A DNA stretch of 34,064 bases, from positions 1-34,064 of the forward strand of contig CABYCI010000011.1 in NCBI GenBank assembly GCA_902517425.1, given 5' to 3'. Position 1 is the stretch's first letter. Every line of letters starts with the position of its first letter. Under the pieces are notes generated by a model that searched no databases, was not told the DNA's origin, and worked only from the letters and a program-made list of their open reading frames with translations. Origin of the DNA: an uncultured SAR86 cluster bacterium (GTDB lineage Bacteria > Pseudomonadota > Gammaproteobacteria > Magnimaribacterales > D2472). Below, in pieces: positions 17,952-29,030 of the stretch. The position numbers and the translations under genes are program-made.

Positions 17952-18823
17952 GTAAAGCCTTGGGCTTTATTGGCTTGGGTGTGATGGGGTTCCCCATGGC
18001 AGGACATCTTGCAAACCAAAATAATAATATTTCTGTTTTCAATAGAACACTAGAAAAATCTAAAACTTGGAATACCAAATATCAAGGTGTTATTTGCAAC
18101 TCCCCAGCAGAACTTGCCAAATTATCAGATGTAATAATGATCTGCATTGGAAATGATAACGATGTTAGAGATGTAATTTCAGGAAGAGACGGAGTGATTA
18201 ATTATCTTAAGAAAGGATCAATAATAGTTGATCACACAACAACCTCATCAGAACTGTCTATGGAAATGAATGAATTGCTTAACTCTAAAGACATCTTTTA
18301 TATTGATGCTCCTGTATCTGGAGGTGAGGCAGGCGCTCAATCTGGCCAATTATCGATCATGGCTGGTGGAGACAAAGAAGCATTTAATTCGATTGAAAAA
18401 ATTTTAGAACCATATACTAAGTTTATTAAATATATGGGGCCATCTGGATCAGGTCAGCTTACAAAGATGGTCAATCAGATATGTATTGCTGGACTTATTC
18501 AGGCATTGGCTGAAGGTGTTAATTTCTCAAAAAAAGTTGGCCTAAACACTCAAGATGTTCTTGAAGTTGTCTCAAAGGGCGCAGCACAATCATGGCAGAT
18601 GGAAAACCGATGGGAAACAATGACTCAAAACAAATATGACTATGGATTTGCTGTTGATTTAATGAGAAAGGATTTAGACATAGTATTAAAAGAAGCAGAC
18701 AAATCTAATATCAGTCTCGATGTCACCAAAATTATTAATGAATTTTATAAAGACATTCAAGATGCTGAAGGAGGTAGATGGGATACTTCCAGTTTGCTAA
18801 AAAGGTTAGAAGAATTAACCTAA
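17948..18823 (+). CDS. 3-hydroxyisobutyrate dehydrogenase-like NAD(P)-dependent oxidoreductase
   Basis: LGFIGLGVMGFPMAGHL, FYIDAPVSGGEAGAQSGQLSIMAGG, GSGQLTKMVNQI. Confidence 0.92.
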   Translation: MSKALGFIGLGVMGFPMAGHLANQNNNISVFNRTLEKSKTWNTKYQGVICNSPAELAKLSDVIMICIGNDNDVRDVISGRDGVINYLKKGSIIVDHTTTSSELSMEMNELLNSKDIFYIDAPVSGGEAGAQSGQLSIMAGGDKEAFNSIEKILEPYTKFIKYMGPSGSGQLTKMVNQICIAGLIQALAEGVNFSKKVGLNTQDVLEVVSKGAAQSWQMENRWETMTQNKYDYGFAVDLMRKDLDIVLKEADKSNISLDVTKIINEFYKDIQDAEGGRWDTSSLLKRLEELT

Positions 18824-19183
18824 AAAGAATCTAGACGAATAAATAAAAACCCCATACCCAAATACAATCATAGCCGAAGCAGTTTCAAGTGAATCCATAT
18901 CTGTAGAATTTGTATCAACCATAGTGTAATAACTATCAGGATTAGAAATTAACCAGCCAACGCCAATCAGATGAGTAAACATTATCAAAGCAACAATCCA
19001 ATTCAATGGTTGTGATGTAAATACAATGAAGGAAGCTAAAATAATAAAGATTAACTCTATTGTTAAAACAGCATTTATATTTTTTCTTTTTAATAAATAT
19101 CTTAAAAGGCTATAACCTTTTATATATGAATAAAAAAGCACAAAACCATATAAAAAATATAAAGAAGAGAGCAAGTAAATCAT
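18815..19183 (-). CDS. Hypothetical membrane protein
   Basis: 122 codons, TM-rich; 3' end overlaps the convergent neighbour by 9 nt. Confidence 0.6.
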   Translation of the reverse strand: MIYLLSSLYFLYGFVLFYSYIKGYSLLRYLLKRKNINAVLTIELIFIILASFIVFTSQPLNWIVALIMFTHLIGVGWLISNPDSYYTMVDTNSTDMDSLETASAMIVFGYGVFIYSSRFFLG

Positions 19184-19414: not shown

Positions 19415-20395
19415 CTAAATTTCTATAACAATATTTCCAATAATGGAGCCACTCTCCATTGCATTATGAGCATCAACAACGTTATTAATCGAATAGGTTT
19501 TTGAAATCATATGTTTTAGAGATTCTTGATTTAATAATTCTGAAAGCCCGCTCAATATTTCTTTTCTAAATGTCCCTTCAATTGAATATATAAGAAAAGT
19601 ATCAATTTTAACGCCTTTGAACATTAGATTATAGAAAGGAAGCTTTGGCTCCATTTCTGCCATTGAGCCATACGTTACAATCACACCATTAGAATTTATA
19701 ATCTTTTCGTTAATTGGAAGATTGCCTCCAAACTCAACTTCAAAGATTCTGTCTACACCATTGTTATTGGTATATTCCATGACCACTTCAACGACATCTT
19801 CAGTGTTATAGTTAATTATTTTATCTGCTCCAGCAGAACTGGCAATATTAGCTTTTTCATCATTACTTATTGTTGTGATTACATTAGCGCCAGCTAACTT
19901 GGCTAACTGAATTCCATAAAAACCCACGGCACCCGCTCCACCAGAAACCAAAACCGTTTTATTTTTAACAGAACCATTTGAATGTATTCCATAATAAGCA
20001 GTCGATGCTGGAATGCCCATACATGCTGCTGATTCATATGAAACATTATCGTTTATCTTAACCGCCTGTAGATTAGGCAAGGTAATAAATTCTGCGCATG
20101 TACCATGAGATCTTCCAAATGCTGCATTCCATATCCAGACTTTTTCACCAATTCTACTTTTATCAACACCCTCACCAACATCTATAATTTCTCCACTACC
20201 ATCAGAATGTGGTATTACAGCTGGAAATTGAAGTGGGCCTCTTGCACCCGCCCTGGTTTTTACATCTGATGGGTTTATGCCAGATGCTCTAACCCTAACC
20301 AATACTTCTCCTGCAATTGGCACAGGATTATGTTGTTCCCCAATTTGAAGAACGTCTTCTGCCTTACCAGTTTTTGTGTACCATACAGCTTTCAT
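19415..20395 (-). CDS. NADPH:quinone reductase-like / MDR superfamily alcohol dehydrogenase
   Basis: MKAVWYTKTGKAEDVLQIGE, VRASGINPSDVKTRAG, VLVSGGAGAVGFYGIQLAKLAGANVITT. Confidence 0.92.
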   Translation of the reverse strand: MKAVWYTKTGKAEDVLQIGEQHNPVPIAGEVLVRVRASGINPSDVKTRAGARGPLQFPAVIPHSDGSGEIIDVGEGVDKSRIGEKVWIWNAAFGRSHGTCAEFITLPNLQAVKINDNVSYESAACMGIPASTAYYGIHSNGSVKNKTVLVSGGAGAVGFYGIQLAKLAGANVITTISNDEKANIASSAGADKIINYNTEDVVEVVMEYTNNNGVDRIFEVEFGGNLPINEKIINSNGVIVTYGSMAEMEPKLPFYNLMFKGVKIDTFLIYSIEGTFRKEILSGLSELLNQESLKHMISKTYSINNVVDAHNAMESGSIIGNIVIEI

Positions 20396-20397
20396 TT

Positions 20398-21183
20398 TTA
20401 ATCCATATATTTCATCGACAGGCTTTCAGTATTGCCATCTATAACCAGCATTTGACCTGTAATCTTTTTTGCTAAAGGTGATATTAAATATACTAACATT
20501 CCAATAATCTCTTCAACATCGATAAATGTTTTTAAAGAGGTTTGTTCTAAATAAGCAGATTTGATTTTTTCTGAAGTTGTACTTCTATATTCTGCTTCTT
20601 TTTCGATAACATTCTCAATTCGCTCTCCATTGACCGAACAAGGACAGACAGCATTAACTCTTATATTATTTTCACCGTACTCCATAGCCCATGTTTTTGT
20701 TAATCCAATTAAACCCCATTTTGTAGCAGAGTATGCAGATCTTAAAGGATTACCTAAAAAAGATGATGTGGAACCAATATTAATAATTGATCCTCCATTG
20801 TTTTTTAGAAGTGGAATAGCAGACTTTGTTACTAGAAACAAACCATTCAAATTAACATTTAAGGTCTCTTCCCATTTATCAAAATCTATATCTTCAAGCT
20901 TTCCCGATGGCCCTGAGATACCAGCATTGTTAATCAAGACGTCGATGCTATTAAATTTACTTTTTATGTCCTTAAAGAAAGAATGAACATCAGATTCATT
21001 AGACACATCAGCATGGTAAGCATAAATTTCAGGATTATTATTTGAAAAAGACTTTAGAATTTTTTTGTTTACGTCACATACCATTACCTTAGCTCCAGCT
21101 TTTGATAAAGCAATCGCTACTTCTGAACCTATTCCAGATGCTCCAGCTGTGATAACAATCTTTAAATCCTTAATGTGATCCAT
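20398..21183 (-). CDS. Short-chain dehydrogenase/reductase (SDR)
   Basis: VITAGASGIGSEVAIAL, VLINNAGISGP, YSATKWGLIGLTKTWA, QMLVIDGN. Confidence 0.94.
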   Translation of the reverse strand: MDHIKDLKIVITAGASGIGSEVAIALSKAGAKVMVCDVNKKILKSFSNNNPEIYAYHADVSNESDVHSFFKDIKSKFNSIDVLINNAGISGPSGKLEDIDFDKWEETLNVNLNGLFLVTKSAIPLLKNNGGSIINIGSTSSFLGNPLRSAYSATKWGLIGLTKTWAMEYGENNIRVNAVCPCSVNGERIENVIEKEAEYRSTTSEKIKSAYLEQTSLKTFIDVEEIIGMLVYLISPLAKKITGQMLVIDGNTESLSMKYMD

Positions 21184-21200
21184 AAATTCTGTATAACTGC

Positions 21201-21617
21201 CTATAGATCGCCTTTTTTGCGAATTTCACTTCTTTGAACTTCAAATTTTTCACCATATCTCGCAGCAAGTTTTTCTTGGTTTTCACTAATAACCTCATAA
21301 GGATCTAAATTAAGAGAAGCGCATGCAGTTACCCAGTACCACATAATATCTCCAAGCTCTCTTTTCATATGAAATATATTATCTTCAGAAGGAGGCTTGC
21401 CTTGAAGGTACATCTTTTTGACAATCTCAACAAACTCACCTGTTTCGCTACCCAGGCCGAGAGCTGCAGTAAGTAATCGAGGTGTTTTAATGCCTGAGTT
21501 TTGCTCAATTTCATCAAAACTTTTCTTTAGAGCATCTAAATCAATACTTGGCTCACTTGTTACTTTTGTTACAAAATCAGTATAGGTACTGAAGAATTTT
21601 TTTATTTCTTCGCTCAT
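21201..21617 (-). CDS. MazG-like nucleotide pyrophosphohydrolase
   Basis: LGLGSETGEFVEIVKKMYLQGKPPSEDNIFHMKRELGDIMWYW; start trimmed to ATG 21617 preceded by GGGAGA. Confidence 0.85.
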   Translation of the reverse strand: MSEEIKKFFSTYTDFVTKVTSEPSIDLDALKKSFDEIEQNSGIKTPRLLTAALGLGSETGEFVEIVKKMYLQGKPPSEDNIFHMKRELGDIMWYWVTACASLNLDPYEVISENQEKLAARYGEKFEVQRSEIRKKGDL

Positions 21618-21668
21618 ATTTTCTCCCAAATGTTATTTAATAATTTTATCATTTAAGCCAAGATTATT

Positions 21669-22655
21669 TTAAAAAAGCTCCTTATCCCATGGTAATGATG
21701 AAACAAAATTTCCAGTAAAAGCTTTATCCTTTTCAATAACTTTTTTATTTATCAGATCAACACCAGATAAATATTCATAATCTTTCATAGTTCTTTTGTT
21801 TCCTAATCCAAATATTCCTTCTATTTTGTTATTAATAATATTATTTAACTTTTTAATGCTAATTTCTTCCCTTTGATGCCACTTTGTCTCTCTATTGCTA
21901 TCTTCATCTTCATCCCAATGCAACTTCCTTTTGATATCTGTAGTTTCAGTATACAAATGAAAAATTGGAATTGCTGGTAAATGAAATATTCCAAAACCTC
22001 TTGTAAAAGCCCTGAGCATTATGGATATTTCTTCTCCATAAAAATAAAAATCAGAGTCATACGGGATTTGTTTTACAAATTCTTTTGTTGAAAATAAAAA
22101 TCCTGCAGCTATTAAATATCCATGAGATATTTCTTTTGTTGCAATCGATCCAATTTGCCTACAAAAATTTTCTTTTATAAACATGGCATCTTCTCTGTAA
22201 GCAATGGTGTGGGTATTGCAATCACTTTTATTAAGCTCAAATTTTTTAGTTTCAATACTAACAACATCAAAAGAGCGAGGGTAACAAGTAATAATTGGAA
22301 GTTGATGCATTTCAGAATCAACAGATCGTATTTCTTCGATATATTTTATTAAATATGAATCCCAACTTTGATCAAATTGCATATGGGAATCTATCTGAAG
22401 GTAATATTCTTCATCTTCAAATTTTTCTTGTATCCTTGATCTAGCCCAACATGGGCCCTCAGAATCCAAAGGATCAATATGCTCGTACTTTATTTGATTA
22501 TTAAATTTAATAGATTCTATATCTAGAGGAATAGATGATTGATCACAAATACCAAAAATGAGGTTTTCTGGCATATCAGATTTCTCATATGCACTTTTGA
22601 TTGTCGTCTCTAGAAGTGCATCTTGATATGAAGCTATCGAAATAAAGATTTTCAT
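21669..22655 (-). CDS. GlcNAc-type glycosyltransferase (PF11397 / GT60-like)
   Basis: MKIFISIASYQDALLETTIKSAYEK, GPCWARSRIQEKFEDEEYYLQIDSHMQF, YDSDFYFYGEEISIMLRAFTRGFGIFHLPAIPIFHLY: strong match to remembered PF11397 motifs. Confidence 0.85.
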   Translation of the reverse strand: MKIFISIASYQDALLETTIKSAYEKSDMPENLIFGICDQSSIPLDIESIKFNNQIKYEHIDPLDSEGPCWARSRIQEKFEDEEYYLQIDSHMQFDQSWDSYLIKYIEEIRSVDSEMHQLPIITCYPRSFDVVSIETKKFELNKSDCNTHTIAYREDAMFIKENFCRQIGSIATKEISHGYLIAAGFLFSTKEFVKQIPYDSDFYFYGEEISIMLRAFTRGFGIFHLPAIPIFHLYTETTDIKRKLHWDEDEDSNRETKWHQREEISIKKLNNIINNKIEGIFGLGNKRTMKDYEYLSGVDLINKKVIEKDKAFTGNFVSSLPWDKELF

Positions 22656-22682
22656 TACTATTTAAATTTAATTTACAAAAAT

Positions 22683-22690
22683 AGTATAAT
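22683..22690. promoter_or_regulatory. Overlapping divergent -10 elements (TATAAT on +, TATACT on -)
   Basis: AGTATAAT in a 46-bp intergenic region. Minus strand reads TTGGTT-N17-TATACT toward the glycosyltransferase; plus strand TATAAT lies 11 nt before the P4H ATG. Confidence 0.55.
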
Positions 22691-22701
22691 TTGAATCGAA
22701 A

Positions 22702-23319
22702 ATGAAACCAAAAAAAATATCTGAAAACGTAACCCTATATTCTACTAATCCTATGGTTTATGTAGTGTCTAATTTTCTTTCTGATTTAGAATGCGACTCA
22801 TTTGTAGAACTTGGCAAAGGAAAAATGGAAAGGGCAACTGTCATCACAGATTCAGAACACGAGGTTCATGCCAGTAGAACTAATGACTATTGTTGGTTAG
22901 AGCATAGTGCAAATGATGTTGTTCATGAGGTTAGTAAAAGATTTTCAGTATTAGTTCAGATGCCTATAAATAATGCTGAGCAATTTCAGCTTGTTTATTA
23001 TGGGCCAGGCAATGAATATAAGCCTCATTTTGATGCTTTTGATAAAACAACTGAAGAAGGCCAAAATAATTGGTTTCCTGGCGGTCAGCGAATGGTTACA
23101 GCCTTGGCATATTTAAATGATGTTGAAGATGGAGGAGCAACTGATTTTCCAGAAGTGAACGTTTCAGTCAAACCAAACAAAGGAGATGTTGTTGTGTTTC
23201 ATAACTGTATAGAAGGCACTACAGAAATTAATCCAGATGCACTGCATGCTGGTTCTCCAGTTGTTGCTGGAGAGAAATGGGCGGTCAATCTCTGGTTTAG
23301 AGAATCAGCAATCTATTAA
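22702..23319 (+). CDS. Prolyl 4-hydroxylase family 2OG-Fe(II) dioxygenase
   Basis: YYGPGNEYKPHFDAFD (HxD), ALAYLNDVEDGGATDFPEVNVSVKPNKGDVVVFHN, HAGSPVVAGEKWAVNLWFRE (distal His and 2OG-binding Lys). Confidence 0.93.
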   Translation: MKPKKISENVTLYSTNPMVYVVSNFLSDLECDSFVELGKGKMERATVITDSEHEVHASRTNDYCWLEHSANDVVHEVSKRFSVLVQMPINNAEQFQLVYYGPGNEYKPHFDAFDKTTEEGQNNWFPGGQRMVTALAYLNDVEDGGATDFPEVNVSVKPNKGDVVVFHNCIEGTTEINPDALHAGSPVVAGEKWAVNLWFRESAIY

Positions 23320-24161
23320 TTATCTACTTTAAGTGACCTTTGACTGTCAGCAATATTGTATAAATGTTCTTGTGCTTCTGGTTTTAGCTGAGCTACCCCC
23401 ATTGTCAAAACATCAATAATAGCTGTATAAGCAATTCTAGATGTTACTGGTTTTGATATTCGATTATTTATACCTACATCAATAGTCAATGGAAAATCAC
23501 AAACATTTGCTAGTGGAGTATTACCAGGCATTATTCCAATAACTTTGACTCCATTTTTTCTAACAATTTTTACACTATCTATTAAAGCAGCAGTTGTTCC
23601 TGATTGAGAAATTGCAACTACAACATCATTTTTTTCTAAAGAATTTGCTGACATGAATTGAAGATGAGGGTCTGAAATATACGATGAAGGAATTTTTAAT
23701 CTAAAAAATTTATGCTGTCCATCCATAGCAACAGGGGCTGAACCTCCAAAAGCATAAAATTCAACTCTTTCTGCATTTACCAAAGTTTCTATAGCACTCT
23801 CTAATATATCTTGATCAATTTGAGATCTAACATTAAGAATCTCACTAATGGTGGTATCAAAGACTTTTTCACATAACTCATGAATAGAGTCATCTTCTTT
23901 TATTTCGTACATAACAAAGTAATCGTCAGCCGCTAGTTGCTGAGATAAATTAATTTTTAGATCCTGAAATCCAGTAAAACCTATAGCTTTACAAAACCTT
24001 ATGAGCGTTGGCTCGCTGATTCCCATAGCTTCAGAAGCCTCCGCTGTTTTCATAGTAATAATAGATTTAGGATCCTTAAGGACAAATTCACCAACGACCT
24101 TTTCAGATTTTCTTAAATCAGGAAGTGAATTTTTAATTTGTCTCAATAATTTTGTCGACAT
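23316..24161 (-). CDS. MurR/RpiR family transcriptional regulator with SIS domain (HexR-like)
   Basis: LPDLRKSEKVVGEFVLKDPKSIITMKTAEASEAMGISEPTLIRFCKAIGFTGFQDLK HTH; SIS domain FGGSAPVAMDGQHKFFRL...AISQSGTTAALIDSVKIVRKNG. Confidence 0.92.
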   Translation of the reverse strand: MSTKLLRQIKNSLPDLRKSEKVVGEFVLKDPKSIITMKTAEASEAMGISEPTLIRFCKAIGFTGFQDLKINLSQQLAADDYFVMYEIKEDDSIHELCEKVFDTTISEILNVRSQIDQDILESAIETLVNAERVEFYAFGGSAPVAMDGQHKFFRLKIPSSYISDPHLQFMSANSLEKNDVVVAISQSGTTAALIDSVKIVRKNGVKVIGIMPGNTPLANVCDFPLTIDVGINNRISKPVTSRIAYTAIIDVLTMGVAQLKPEAQEHLYNIADSQRSLKVDN

Positions 24162-26378: not shown

Positions 26379-27463
26379 TGAATAAAATTATTTCCTTATC
26401 TTTAATAATTCTAATAGCTGGCTGCTCCAGTGAAGCTATAAATGTTGAGACAACATCTATCGATAAAGATACAACATACAATTGGAGACTAGTTACTTCG
26501 TGGCCAAAGAATTATCCAGGACTTGGAATGGCACCAGAGCGTATTGCAGATCTTGTTGAAGAAATGAGCGATGGTCAAATGACAATAACTGTTTACGGGG
26601 CTGAAGAACAGGTTCCAGCATTTGGAGTATTTGATGCTGTTTCTAGTGGCTCTCATCAGATGGGTCATAGCGGAGGCTACTTTTGGAAAGGAAAAGTGCC
26701 TGCTGCACAATTTTTCACTAGTGTTCCTTTTGGATTAACAGCCGATGAAATAAATGCATGGGTCAACAGGGGCGGCGGTTTGGAGTTATGGAGAGAAATT
26801 TATGCTCCATTTAATATCTATCCAATCCCTGCAGGAAACACTGGAACTCAAATGTTTGGTTGGTTTAACAAAGAAATTAATTCTCTTGATGATATCAAAG
26901 GCCTCAAAATGCGTATTCCTGGTATTGGTGGCGAGGTATTAAAAGAAGCAGGTGGAATTCCAGTTACACTTCCAGGTGGAGAGCTTTTCACAGCACTTCA
27001 AACAGGAGTAATAGATGCAACTGAATGGGTTGGTCCATACAATGATCTGACCTTTGGCTTTCATCAGGCAGCAAAATATTATTATTATCCAGGGTGGCAT
27101 GAACCTGGCCCAATGCTTGAATTATTAATCAATATGGATGCCTGGAACTCTTTGCCAAAACATTTACAAGTTATTATTGAGACTGCTTCCAAAGCGGTGA
27201 ATCAAGACATGCTGGATGAATATTTAGCAAAAAATAATCAAGCACTTACGGAATTAGTTGATGTTCATGGCGTTGAGCTAAGAAAGTTACCAGATGATGT
27301 AATAGAAGAATTTAGAAAGATTTCTAATAAGATTCTTGATGACTTAGCCAAAGAAGATGAGTCTATTGCAAAGGTATATGATTCATATCTAAAATTTAAG
27401 AATAATGTATCTGCTTATCATCAAATCTCTGAAGATGCCTTTGTAGAATCAAGAAATAAATAG
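26378..27463 (+). CDS. TRAP transporter substrate-binding lipoprotein (DctP/TakP-like)
   Basis: Lipobox LIAGCSS; WRLVTSWPKNYPGLGMAPERIADLVEEMSDGQMTITVY, GWFNKEINSLDDIKGLKMRIPGIGGEVLKEAGGIPVTLPGGELFTALQTGVIDATEWVGPY. Confidence 0.92.
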   Translation: MNKIISLSLIILIAGCSSEAINVETTSIDKDTTYNWRLVTSWPKNYPGLGMAPERIADLVEEMSDGQMTITVYGAEEQVPAFGVFDAVSSGSHQMGHSGGYFWKGKVPAAQFFTSVPFGLTADEINAWVNRGGGLELWREIYAPFNIYPIPAGNTGTQMFGWFNKEINSLDDIKGLKMRIPGIGGEVLKEAGGIPVTLPGGELFTALQTGVIDATEWVGPYNDLTFGFHQAAKYYYYPGWHEPGPMLELLINMDAWNSLPKHLQVIIETASKAVNQDMLDEYLAKNNQALTELVDVHGVELRKLPDDVIEEFRKISNKILDDLAKEDESIAKVYDSYLKFKNNVSAYHQISEDAFVESRNK

Positions 27464-28065
27464 TGCTTGAAGACTTAACTTTTAAATATCTTGGTGTTGT
27501 TAATTACCATGAAACATTAGATTTAATGAAATCTCATATACAAAGTGAGAATTTCACTAATGAGATTTGGTTGCTTGAACATCCACCAATATTCACTCTT
27601 GGAACAGCAGCAGATAGAAGCCACATCTTAAATGCAAAAAAGATTCCAGTTGTTCAATCAGATAGAGGAGGAGAGGTGACCTACCATGGGCCTGGCCAAC
27701 TAGTTATCTATTTCTTACTCGATATAAAAAAATTAGATTTTAGTCCAAAGAAATTAGTCTTAACCATACAAAATTTTATTAAAGATTTACTTAAACAAGT
27801 TTCAATTGACTGTAATTTTGTTGAGGGTGCGCCTGGGGTATATGTAGATAAAAAGAAAATTGCCTCTATCGGGTTAAGAATTTCAAAAGGGAAAACTTAC
27901 CATGGCATTAGTCTTAATTTTGATATGGACCTTTCACCATTCAAACAAATCAACCCATGTGGCTATGAAGGTCTTGAGGTTACACAGATAAAAGATTTAA
28001 ATAAAGATATATCTAAATTACAATTAGAGAAATTAGTAATAGATTTACTAAGAAATATTTTTTAA
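27463..28065 (+). CDS. lipB: Octanoyltransferase LipB
   Basis: [83 protein letters not shown] start. Confidence 0.95.
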
Positions 28066-28067
28066 TC

Positions 28068-29030
28068 ATGGAAATAATTACTACAACGAAGATAACCAAT
28101 AGAGATGGCATCAAAGCTATTAAAAATGGTCAAAAATTTAATAAGTATGCTGATATTCCAACACCTAAGAAACCTAGCTGGCTCAAAGTAAAAGCAGAAT
28201 TCAATCCAAATTTTCACAAAGTAAAAGAACAAGTCCAAAGCAAACAACTTTATACAGTTTGTGAGGAAGCTCACTGCCCAAACATAAGTGAGTGCTGGTC
28301 TGCAGGAACAGCAACTTTTATGTTGATGGGATCGGTATGCACAAGAGCTTGCAAGTTTTGCTCAGTCGATACTGGAAATCCTAACGGATGGCTCGATAAG
28401 GATGAGCCAATGAATACTGCTAAGGCTGTTGAGATAATGAAACTCAAATACGTTGTCTTAACATCTGTAAACAGAGATGACCTTCCTGATGGAGGAGCTC
28501 AGCATTTTGCTGATACAGTAAAACTAATAAAAGAATTAAATCCAAATACTGCTGTTGAAGCATTAACACCAGATTTTAAAGGCCTGTCATCTTCGATAGA
28601 TACTTTAGTAAATTGTGGATTAGAAGTTTTTGCACAAAACATCGAAACGGTGGAAAGACTTACGCATCAAGTTAGAGATATTAGGGCAGGGTATAAGCAA
28701 ACATTAGATGTGCTAGCAGAATCAAAACACATTAATCCAAAAGTGCTTACTAAAACAAGTATCATTCTTGGCTTAGGAGAAACTGATTTGGAAATAGAAG
28801 AAACCATGGATGATCTGATTGCTAATAAAGTTGATATTTTAACCATTGGTCAATACTTAAGACCGACTATCAACCACCATCCAATTGAAAGATGGGTCAC
28901 ACCTGAAGAGTTTGAAAAATATAGAGAAATAGGATTAAAAAAAGGTTTTCTTGAGGTAATGTCAGGACCTATGGTTCGTTCTAGCTATAGAGCAGAAAGA
29001 GCCCTTGAAAAAAATAATGCAGGACTTTAA
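28068..29030 (+). CDS. lipA: Lipoyl synthase LipA
   Basis: [33 protein letters not shown] (radical SAM), [34 protein letters not shown]. Confidence 0.97.

Follow-up and report, generated by a model that had tools for sequence, protein, structure and literature searches.

A divergent prolyl 4-hydroxylase and GT60-like glycosyltransferase gene pair in SAR86 bacteria, a candidate module for hydroxyproline glycosylation

The gene pair and its predicted enzymes

The window, by which we mean the whole stretch of 34,064 nucleotides analysed here, comes from a SAR86-type genome (0.93 Mb, 60% complete), and its relatives at the protein level are SAR86 MAGs and single cells. SAR86 is an abundant, mostly uncultivated ocean bacterium. 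The original prediction placed a PF11397-type glycosyltransferase (GT) on the minus strand and a collagen-type prolyl 4-hydroxylase (P4H) on the plus strand, with divergent start codons 46 bp apart, and this layout was confirmed by the open reading frames and by Pfam (Table 1). The HMM check proposed with it gave 148.2 bits against PF11397 for the GT (curated cut-off 21) and 62 bits against PF13640 for the P4H (cut-off 27). Ahead of the P4H start lies a TATAAT-like box, AAAAATAGTATAATTTGAATCG, with at most one or two substitutions across the window and three genus members. Purifying selection acts on both genes, dN/dS values in close genome pairs being 0.04–0.12 for the GT and 0.009–0.08 for the P4H, the latter range excluding one pair of decayed copies.

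Table 1. Positions of the gene pair and surrounding features in the window
Feature	Position	Strand	Remarks
MazG-like pyrophosphohydrolase	21201..21629	-	left edge of the pair's slot, outside the module; abuts HexR in pair-less relatives
PF11397 / GT60-like glycosyltransferase (GT)	21669..22655	-	328 aa, GT-A type; Pfam, AF2, Foldseek
Divergent intergenic region	22656..22701	.	46 bp; TATAAT-like box just upstream of P4H start
Collagen/algal-type prolyl 4-hydroxylase (P4H)	22702..23319	+	205 aa; Pfam, phmmer, AF2, Foldseek
HexR/RpiR-type regulator	23316..24161	-	right edge of the slot, outside the module; found with or without the pair
LipB-like gene	27463-28065		by context
Lipoyl synthase	28068-29030		Pfam

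A sequence search of the PDB retrieved nothing related to the GT, and fold search alone gave matches: the nearest solved folds to its AF2 model (pLDDT 93.3) identified by Foldseek were polypeptide GalNAc-transferases of family GT27 (probability 1.00), which initiate glycans on polypeptides and carry a DxH motif. The GT differs from these enzymes in having no lectin domain, in its low identity (12–17%; TM about 0.5–0.6) and in its assignment to another Pfam family, and shares with them a GT-A fold, a DxH metal motif and a general likeness to polypeptide transferases. Because of this resemblance in fold, we infer from the model that the acceptor is probably a polypeptide. The motifs comprise DSH at residues 89–91, GEE at 207–209 and H233, and D89, S90, H91, W98, D99, E208, E209, H233 and W247 are invariant across 27 SAR86 GT sequences. 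One genome (G001, L080:8691-10451) carries a tandem second, partial GT copy, ~60% identical, between the GT and MazG.

The P4H retrieved Bacillus anthracis and Chlamydomonas P4Hs (3itq/2jig) with phmmer at 4e-32 and 7.5e-31, and in alignment it keeps the Fe ligands H109, D111 and H182 together with the 2OG-binding K192, roles assigned by homology. The top Foldseek match to its AF2 model (pLDDT 91.7) was 3gze, Cr-P4H-1 with bound (Ser-Pro)5 (TM 0.85), compared with 0.81 for 7zsc, 0.59–0.67 for PHD2 and 0.60–0.63 for DdPhyA, which ranked about 36th. The algal enzyme with its Ser-Pro peptide thus precedes BaP4H, the nearest bacterial solved structure, and human collagen P4H, with PHD-type enzymes further away. 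By this comparison, the P4H is of the collagen/algal type rather than the PHD type of Dictyostelium PhyA. In the P4H tree, the SAR86 enzyme falls in a group separate from BaP4H/PPHD-type enzymes (support 91, not starred).

Joint inheritance of the pair in SAR86

The usual gene order is MazG-GT-P4H-HexR-UvrD-DctP-LipB-LipA. The GT was found in 11 and the P4H in 10 of 34 genomes of the genus, and each occurs in 47 of the 107 genomes of family f1; many of the surveyed genomes are incomplete MAGs. The two genes are divergently adjacent in every family-f1 genome that has both, giving 46 genomes when a contig from a different SAR86 family is counted (G181), with starts about 40–67 bp apart. Because 46 genomes share the same divergent layout, the arrangement is not due to chance. 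The G181 contig may be misbinned, since it is 3.5 kb long and carries a GT that clusters with those of one genus in family f1. Lone genes in family f1 are accounted for by contigs that end at the GT (G018, G062) or at the P4H (G091) and by a single genome, G086, in which the P4H is kept and an unrelated type of protein, a putative oxygenase of 272 aa, stands in place of the GT.

The case of G086 counts against the two-step module proposed below. Its substitute protein (L108:8771-9589) shows an HRD...H pattern and resembles a domain (about 30% identity, E 5e-7) that other SAR86 genomes carry fused behind a P4H domain (L443:7104-8465 and L439:6540-7994). The P4H thus seems to associate with partners of more than one type.

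Both genes are absent from 33 genomes that retain MazG and HexR; the flanks abut in 26 of these (-11 to 82 bp), and the remaining 7 have one other gene in the slot. On a tree of the flanking gene UvrD, built like our other trees from quick searches, presence of the pair requires 10 changes, and branches with good support compel at least 7 of these. Across 7 independent comparisons, a change in one gene was matched by the other in 6–7 cases and opposed in none (p about 0.016–0.031), with UvrD lying near the locus and possibly sharing the history of the pair. Joint loss is explained in part by linkage, since the family-f1 genes adjoin and one deletion removes both.

Linkage also underlies the likeliest alternative: that the two genes have unrelated jobs and are neighbours by descent in a dispensable MazG-HexR slot, lost together through one deletion or recombination event. 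The conserved MazG-GT-P4H-HexR-UvrD synteny of family f1 and its clean empty slots are what such a history would leave. In SAR86 family f4, moreover, the P4H stands before UvrD-LipB-LipA with no GT there, and the GT is found at another locus, adjoining a DUF179 (YqgE/AlgH-like) gene. Against this reading, the pair and MazG have stayed together in G100 and G102 though moved away from HexR, and the GT is almost never found without the P4H, even where the two are unlinked. Across 203 genomes of the order, where strong P4H matches only were counted and kinship inflates the raw association, 60 of the 62 genomes with the GT also have the P4H, both exceptions having their GT at contig ends; 10 have the P4H without the GT. 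This one-way dependence is the pattern predicted by a hydroxylate-then-glycosylate order. All 14 family-f4 genomes with the GT have the P4H, a count that tells little because the P4H is near universal in that family, where five further genomes have it without the GT. The f4 P4H begins with a hydrophobic helix, and the basic segment that follows suggests a cytoplasmic membrane-bound form.

A further argument against mere neighbourhood comes from the decay of the P4H. Its iron ligands are lost in four genomes, entirely in G080 and G081 and by a change of HxD to RxD (His to Arg) in G048 and G052. All four belong to the eight genomes with a divergent GT subtype, B, as against none of the 36 with subtype A. 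The ligand-less P4H pair is under relaxed selection, with a dN/dS of 0.32, compared with 0.01–0.08 in live P4Hs and 0.07 for the GT of the same pair. The four seemingly dead P4Hs are still encoded as open frames beside the GT, a point against the proposed two-step module. The restriction of decay to subtype B is suggestive and involves few independent events. At positions 65, 93, 178 and 206, which flank the catalytic motifs, the GTs of subtype B and of f4 depart from those of subtype A.

Hydroxylase and transferase outside SAR86

A genome of another class (G875) encodes a P4H, a PF11397 domain and a TTL/ATP-grasp domain in one frame of 875 aa (L244:487-3114, minus strand). The P4H occupies residues 12–205 with its catalytic residues intact, and the PF11397 domain scores 222 bits. 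In our trees the P4H of this fusion groups with SAR86-like P4Hs and the GT domain falls beyond the clade of SAR86 GTs; therefore, the association of P4H and GT arose separately. The original prediction would have lost its force had adjacency been confined to close relatives, and the fusion places co-occurrence well beyond them. A separate fusion in another class also counts against neighbourhood by descent, which, with the observations from SAR86, we regard as unlikely.

Two observations surround the fusion. The gene that begins 5 bp downstream of it (L292:6864-8039) encodes an S58 (DmpA-type) peptidase whose N-terminus is signal-like, and a Thioalkalivibrio plasmid, pTK9001, encodes a P4H-TTL/ATP-grasp fusion without a GT (WP_018940603.1; L288:8722-10590), both domains of which are also present in the G875 protein.

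Our phylum sample comprised about 400 genomes, the whole-genome survey being of Pseudomonadota. It included 29 other genomes with GT60, many of them checked within about 1.5 kb only, and a P4H link was seen in just 1 of these. Ten other GT60 genomes outside SAR86 are without a P4H of the SAR86 type, and the GT family therefore does not generally need a P4H; in three genomes from elsewhere in Gammaproteobacteria, no GT60 gene was found next to a P4H. Standalone P4Hs of the SAR86-like subfamily likewise occur without GT60. In family f247 (L294, L295, L297, L301, L303), a conserved series of genes begins with a SAR86-like P4H and continues with phosphoglucose isomerase and NTP transferase (GalU-like), hinting at a link between the P4H and UDP-sugars; the f247 genomes with this series gave no GT60 match.

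PF11397 genes are found in varied surroundings. In family f216 and relatives, of another class (L226, L231, L239), the transferases are fused to a methyltransferase domain. Genes of this family without a P4H lie between two giant adhesin-like ORFs in G361 (L202), beside ORFs resembling type VI secretion parts in G597 (L304), and beside annotated phage-tail and VgrG genes on an Azospirillum plasmid (L289). Viral contigs carry GT60 in at least 80 loci and P4H in others. A phage origin of the pair was considered and rejected: a single viral locus combines the two families within 5 kb, with only a weak P4H match (27 bits).

A candidate two-step modification and its known counterparts

Both proteins are intact members of their families, conserved and co-inherited beyond mere neighbourhood, and domains of the same families are fused elsewhere. 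Co-inheritance, fusion and dependence, all of them genomic evidence, point to a functional coupling of the GT and P4H. We think it probable that the pair forms a two-step module acting on a polypeptide, in which the P4H makes hydroxyproline and the GT glycosylates it. In such a module, hydroxylation of one or a few prolines of a cytoplasmic polypeptide by the P4H would depend on O2, 2-oxoglutarate and Fe(II), and the GT60-like transferase would then add a sugar, probably an N-acetylhexosamine, to the new hydroxyl. The acceptor hydroxyl would thus be that of hydroxyproline, with both enzymes presumably acting on the same residue.

A small-peptide or non-protein acceptor, such as a peptide natural product or an envelope peptide on which the P4H and GT act as tailoring enzymes, is improbable. 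It would suit the ligase domain and neighbouring peptidase of the G875 fusion, the joining of a P4H to the same ligase type on the Thioalkalivibrio plasmid, and the fast evolution of the GT, whose mean identity within the genus is 0.70 against 0.88 for the P4H; however, none of the genes beside the SAR86 pair was recognised as a conserved partner of ligase, peptidase, precursor or transporter type, and the fold of the GT is nearest to polypeptide transferases. We give very little credence to the idea that the two enzymes share a protein on which Ser/Thr (or another residue) receives the sugar from the GT, with the P4H serving for tuning or recruitment alone, possibly already the case in subtype B: the substitutions of subtype B and f4 GTs beside the catalytic motifs, the persistence of dead P4Hs as open frames under weak purifying selection and the GT60 members that initiate mucin-type O-glycans in the protist Golgi (PMC8724618) are compatible with it, but the P4H ligands are kept in 36 of 36 subtype-A genomes in the tree, and the dead P4Hs may be plain decay.

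For the hydroxylate-then-glycosylate module itself, the closest counterpart is the modification of Skp1. Skp1 and SCF are eukaryotic. The Skp1 pathway (PhyA and Gnt1, CAZy GT60; Dictyostelium, Toxoplasma, Pythium) similarly has a P4H in the cytoplasm and, after it, a transferase of the GT60 family, whereas the SAR86 pair, being bacterial, would have no Skp1/SCF, is encoded by divergent genes and includes a P4H of collagen/algal rather than PHD type. Because the P4H subclass differs and Skp1 is eukaryotic, we have not filed the pair under this pathway. According to PMC8724618, the P4H and GT60 enzymes of protists act in sequence, and in the plant pathogen Pythium, as cited there, a single dual-function P4H/GlcNAc-transferase modifies Skp1, with both activities in one protein like the two domains of G875. 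The original prediction of a hydroxylate-then-glycosylate pair is upheld in part: its coupling is favoured by joint presence and absence, the G875 fusion, the dependence of the GT and the decay restricted to subtype B, and it is weakened by a P4H outside the Skp1-type subclass and by the single link among the other GT60 genomes sampled.

Plant and algal hydroxyproline O-glycosylation (the Cr-P4H-1 class) offers the nearest P4H fold, that of Cr-P4H-1 with a Ser-Pro peptide. In plants, hydroxyproline glycans are assembled in the secretory pathway by transferases of other families. Their linkages are described in PMC8724618. Among bacterial P4Hs, those of BaP4H and PPHD type act on EF-Tu (PMC7864055; PDB titles 5v7y, 4iw3). 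The Bacillus anthracis and Pseudomonas enzymes share the P4H fold and Fe/2OG residues with the SAR86 enzyme at about 30% identity or less, and no report of a glycosylation partner or step for either was found in the literature searched.

To our knowledge, hydroxyproline-linked glycans are known from eukaryotes only, and the literature searched, with subscription journals mostly outside it, contained no report of bacterial hydroxyproline glycosylation by a P4H and GT60 pair. Our findings suggest that hydroxyproline may be glycosylated in bacteria as well. For the wider proposal, a bacterial hydroxyproline O-glycosylation that arose in parallel with the Skp1 pathway of protists, in which an O2-dependent collagen-type P4H makes the acceptor for GT60, partners are modular and subtype B has become independent of the hydroxylase, we see the chances as evenly balanced. 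Modularity here means that the same P4H subfamily would pair with GT60, a TTL/ATP-grasp ligase or a second oxygenase. If true, the existence of such a system in bacteria would be relevant to how the Skp1 oxygen-sensing pathway arose, SAR86 would gain a protein modification dependent on O2 and 2-oxoglutarate, and hydroxylation by bacterial P4Hs would be joined by a second step. With the G875 fusion, this reading can be tested on a single recombinant protein.

No proline-rich, Ser-Pro or collagen-like target was found near the pair or in the window, in keeping with the earlier remark that none was evident there. The products of MazG, HexR, SDR and other neighbouring genes were rejected as operon-partner targets, their presence and absence being independent of the pair. 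Downstream of MazG on the minus strand, positions 19415-21183 of the window form a second variable slot, reaching to a small minus-strand ORF at 18815-19183; the SDR/quinone-oxidoreductase pair that occupies it is absent or exchanged for unrelated genes in relatives.
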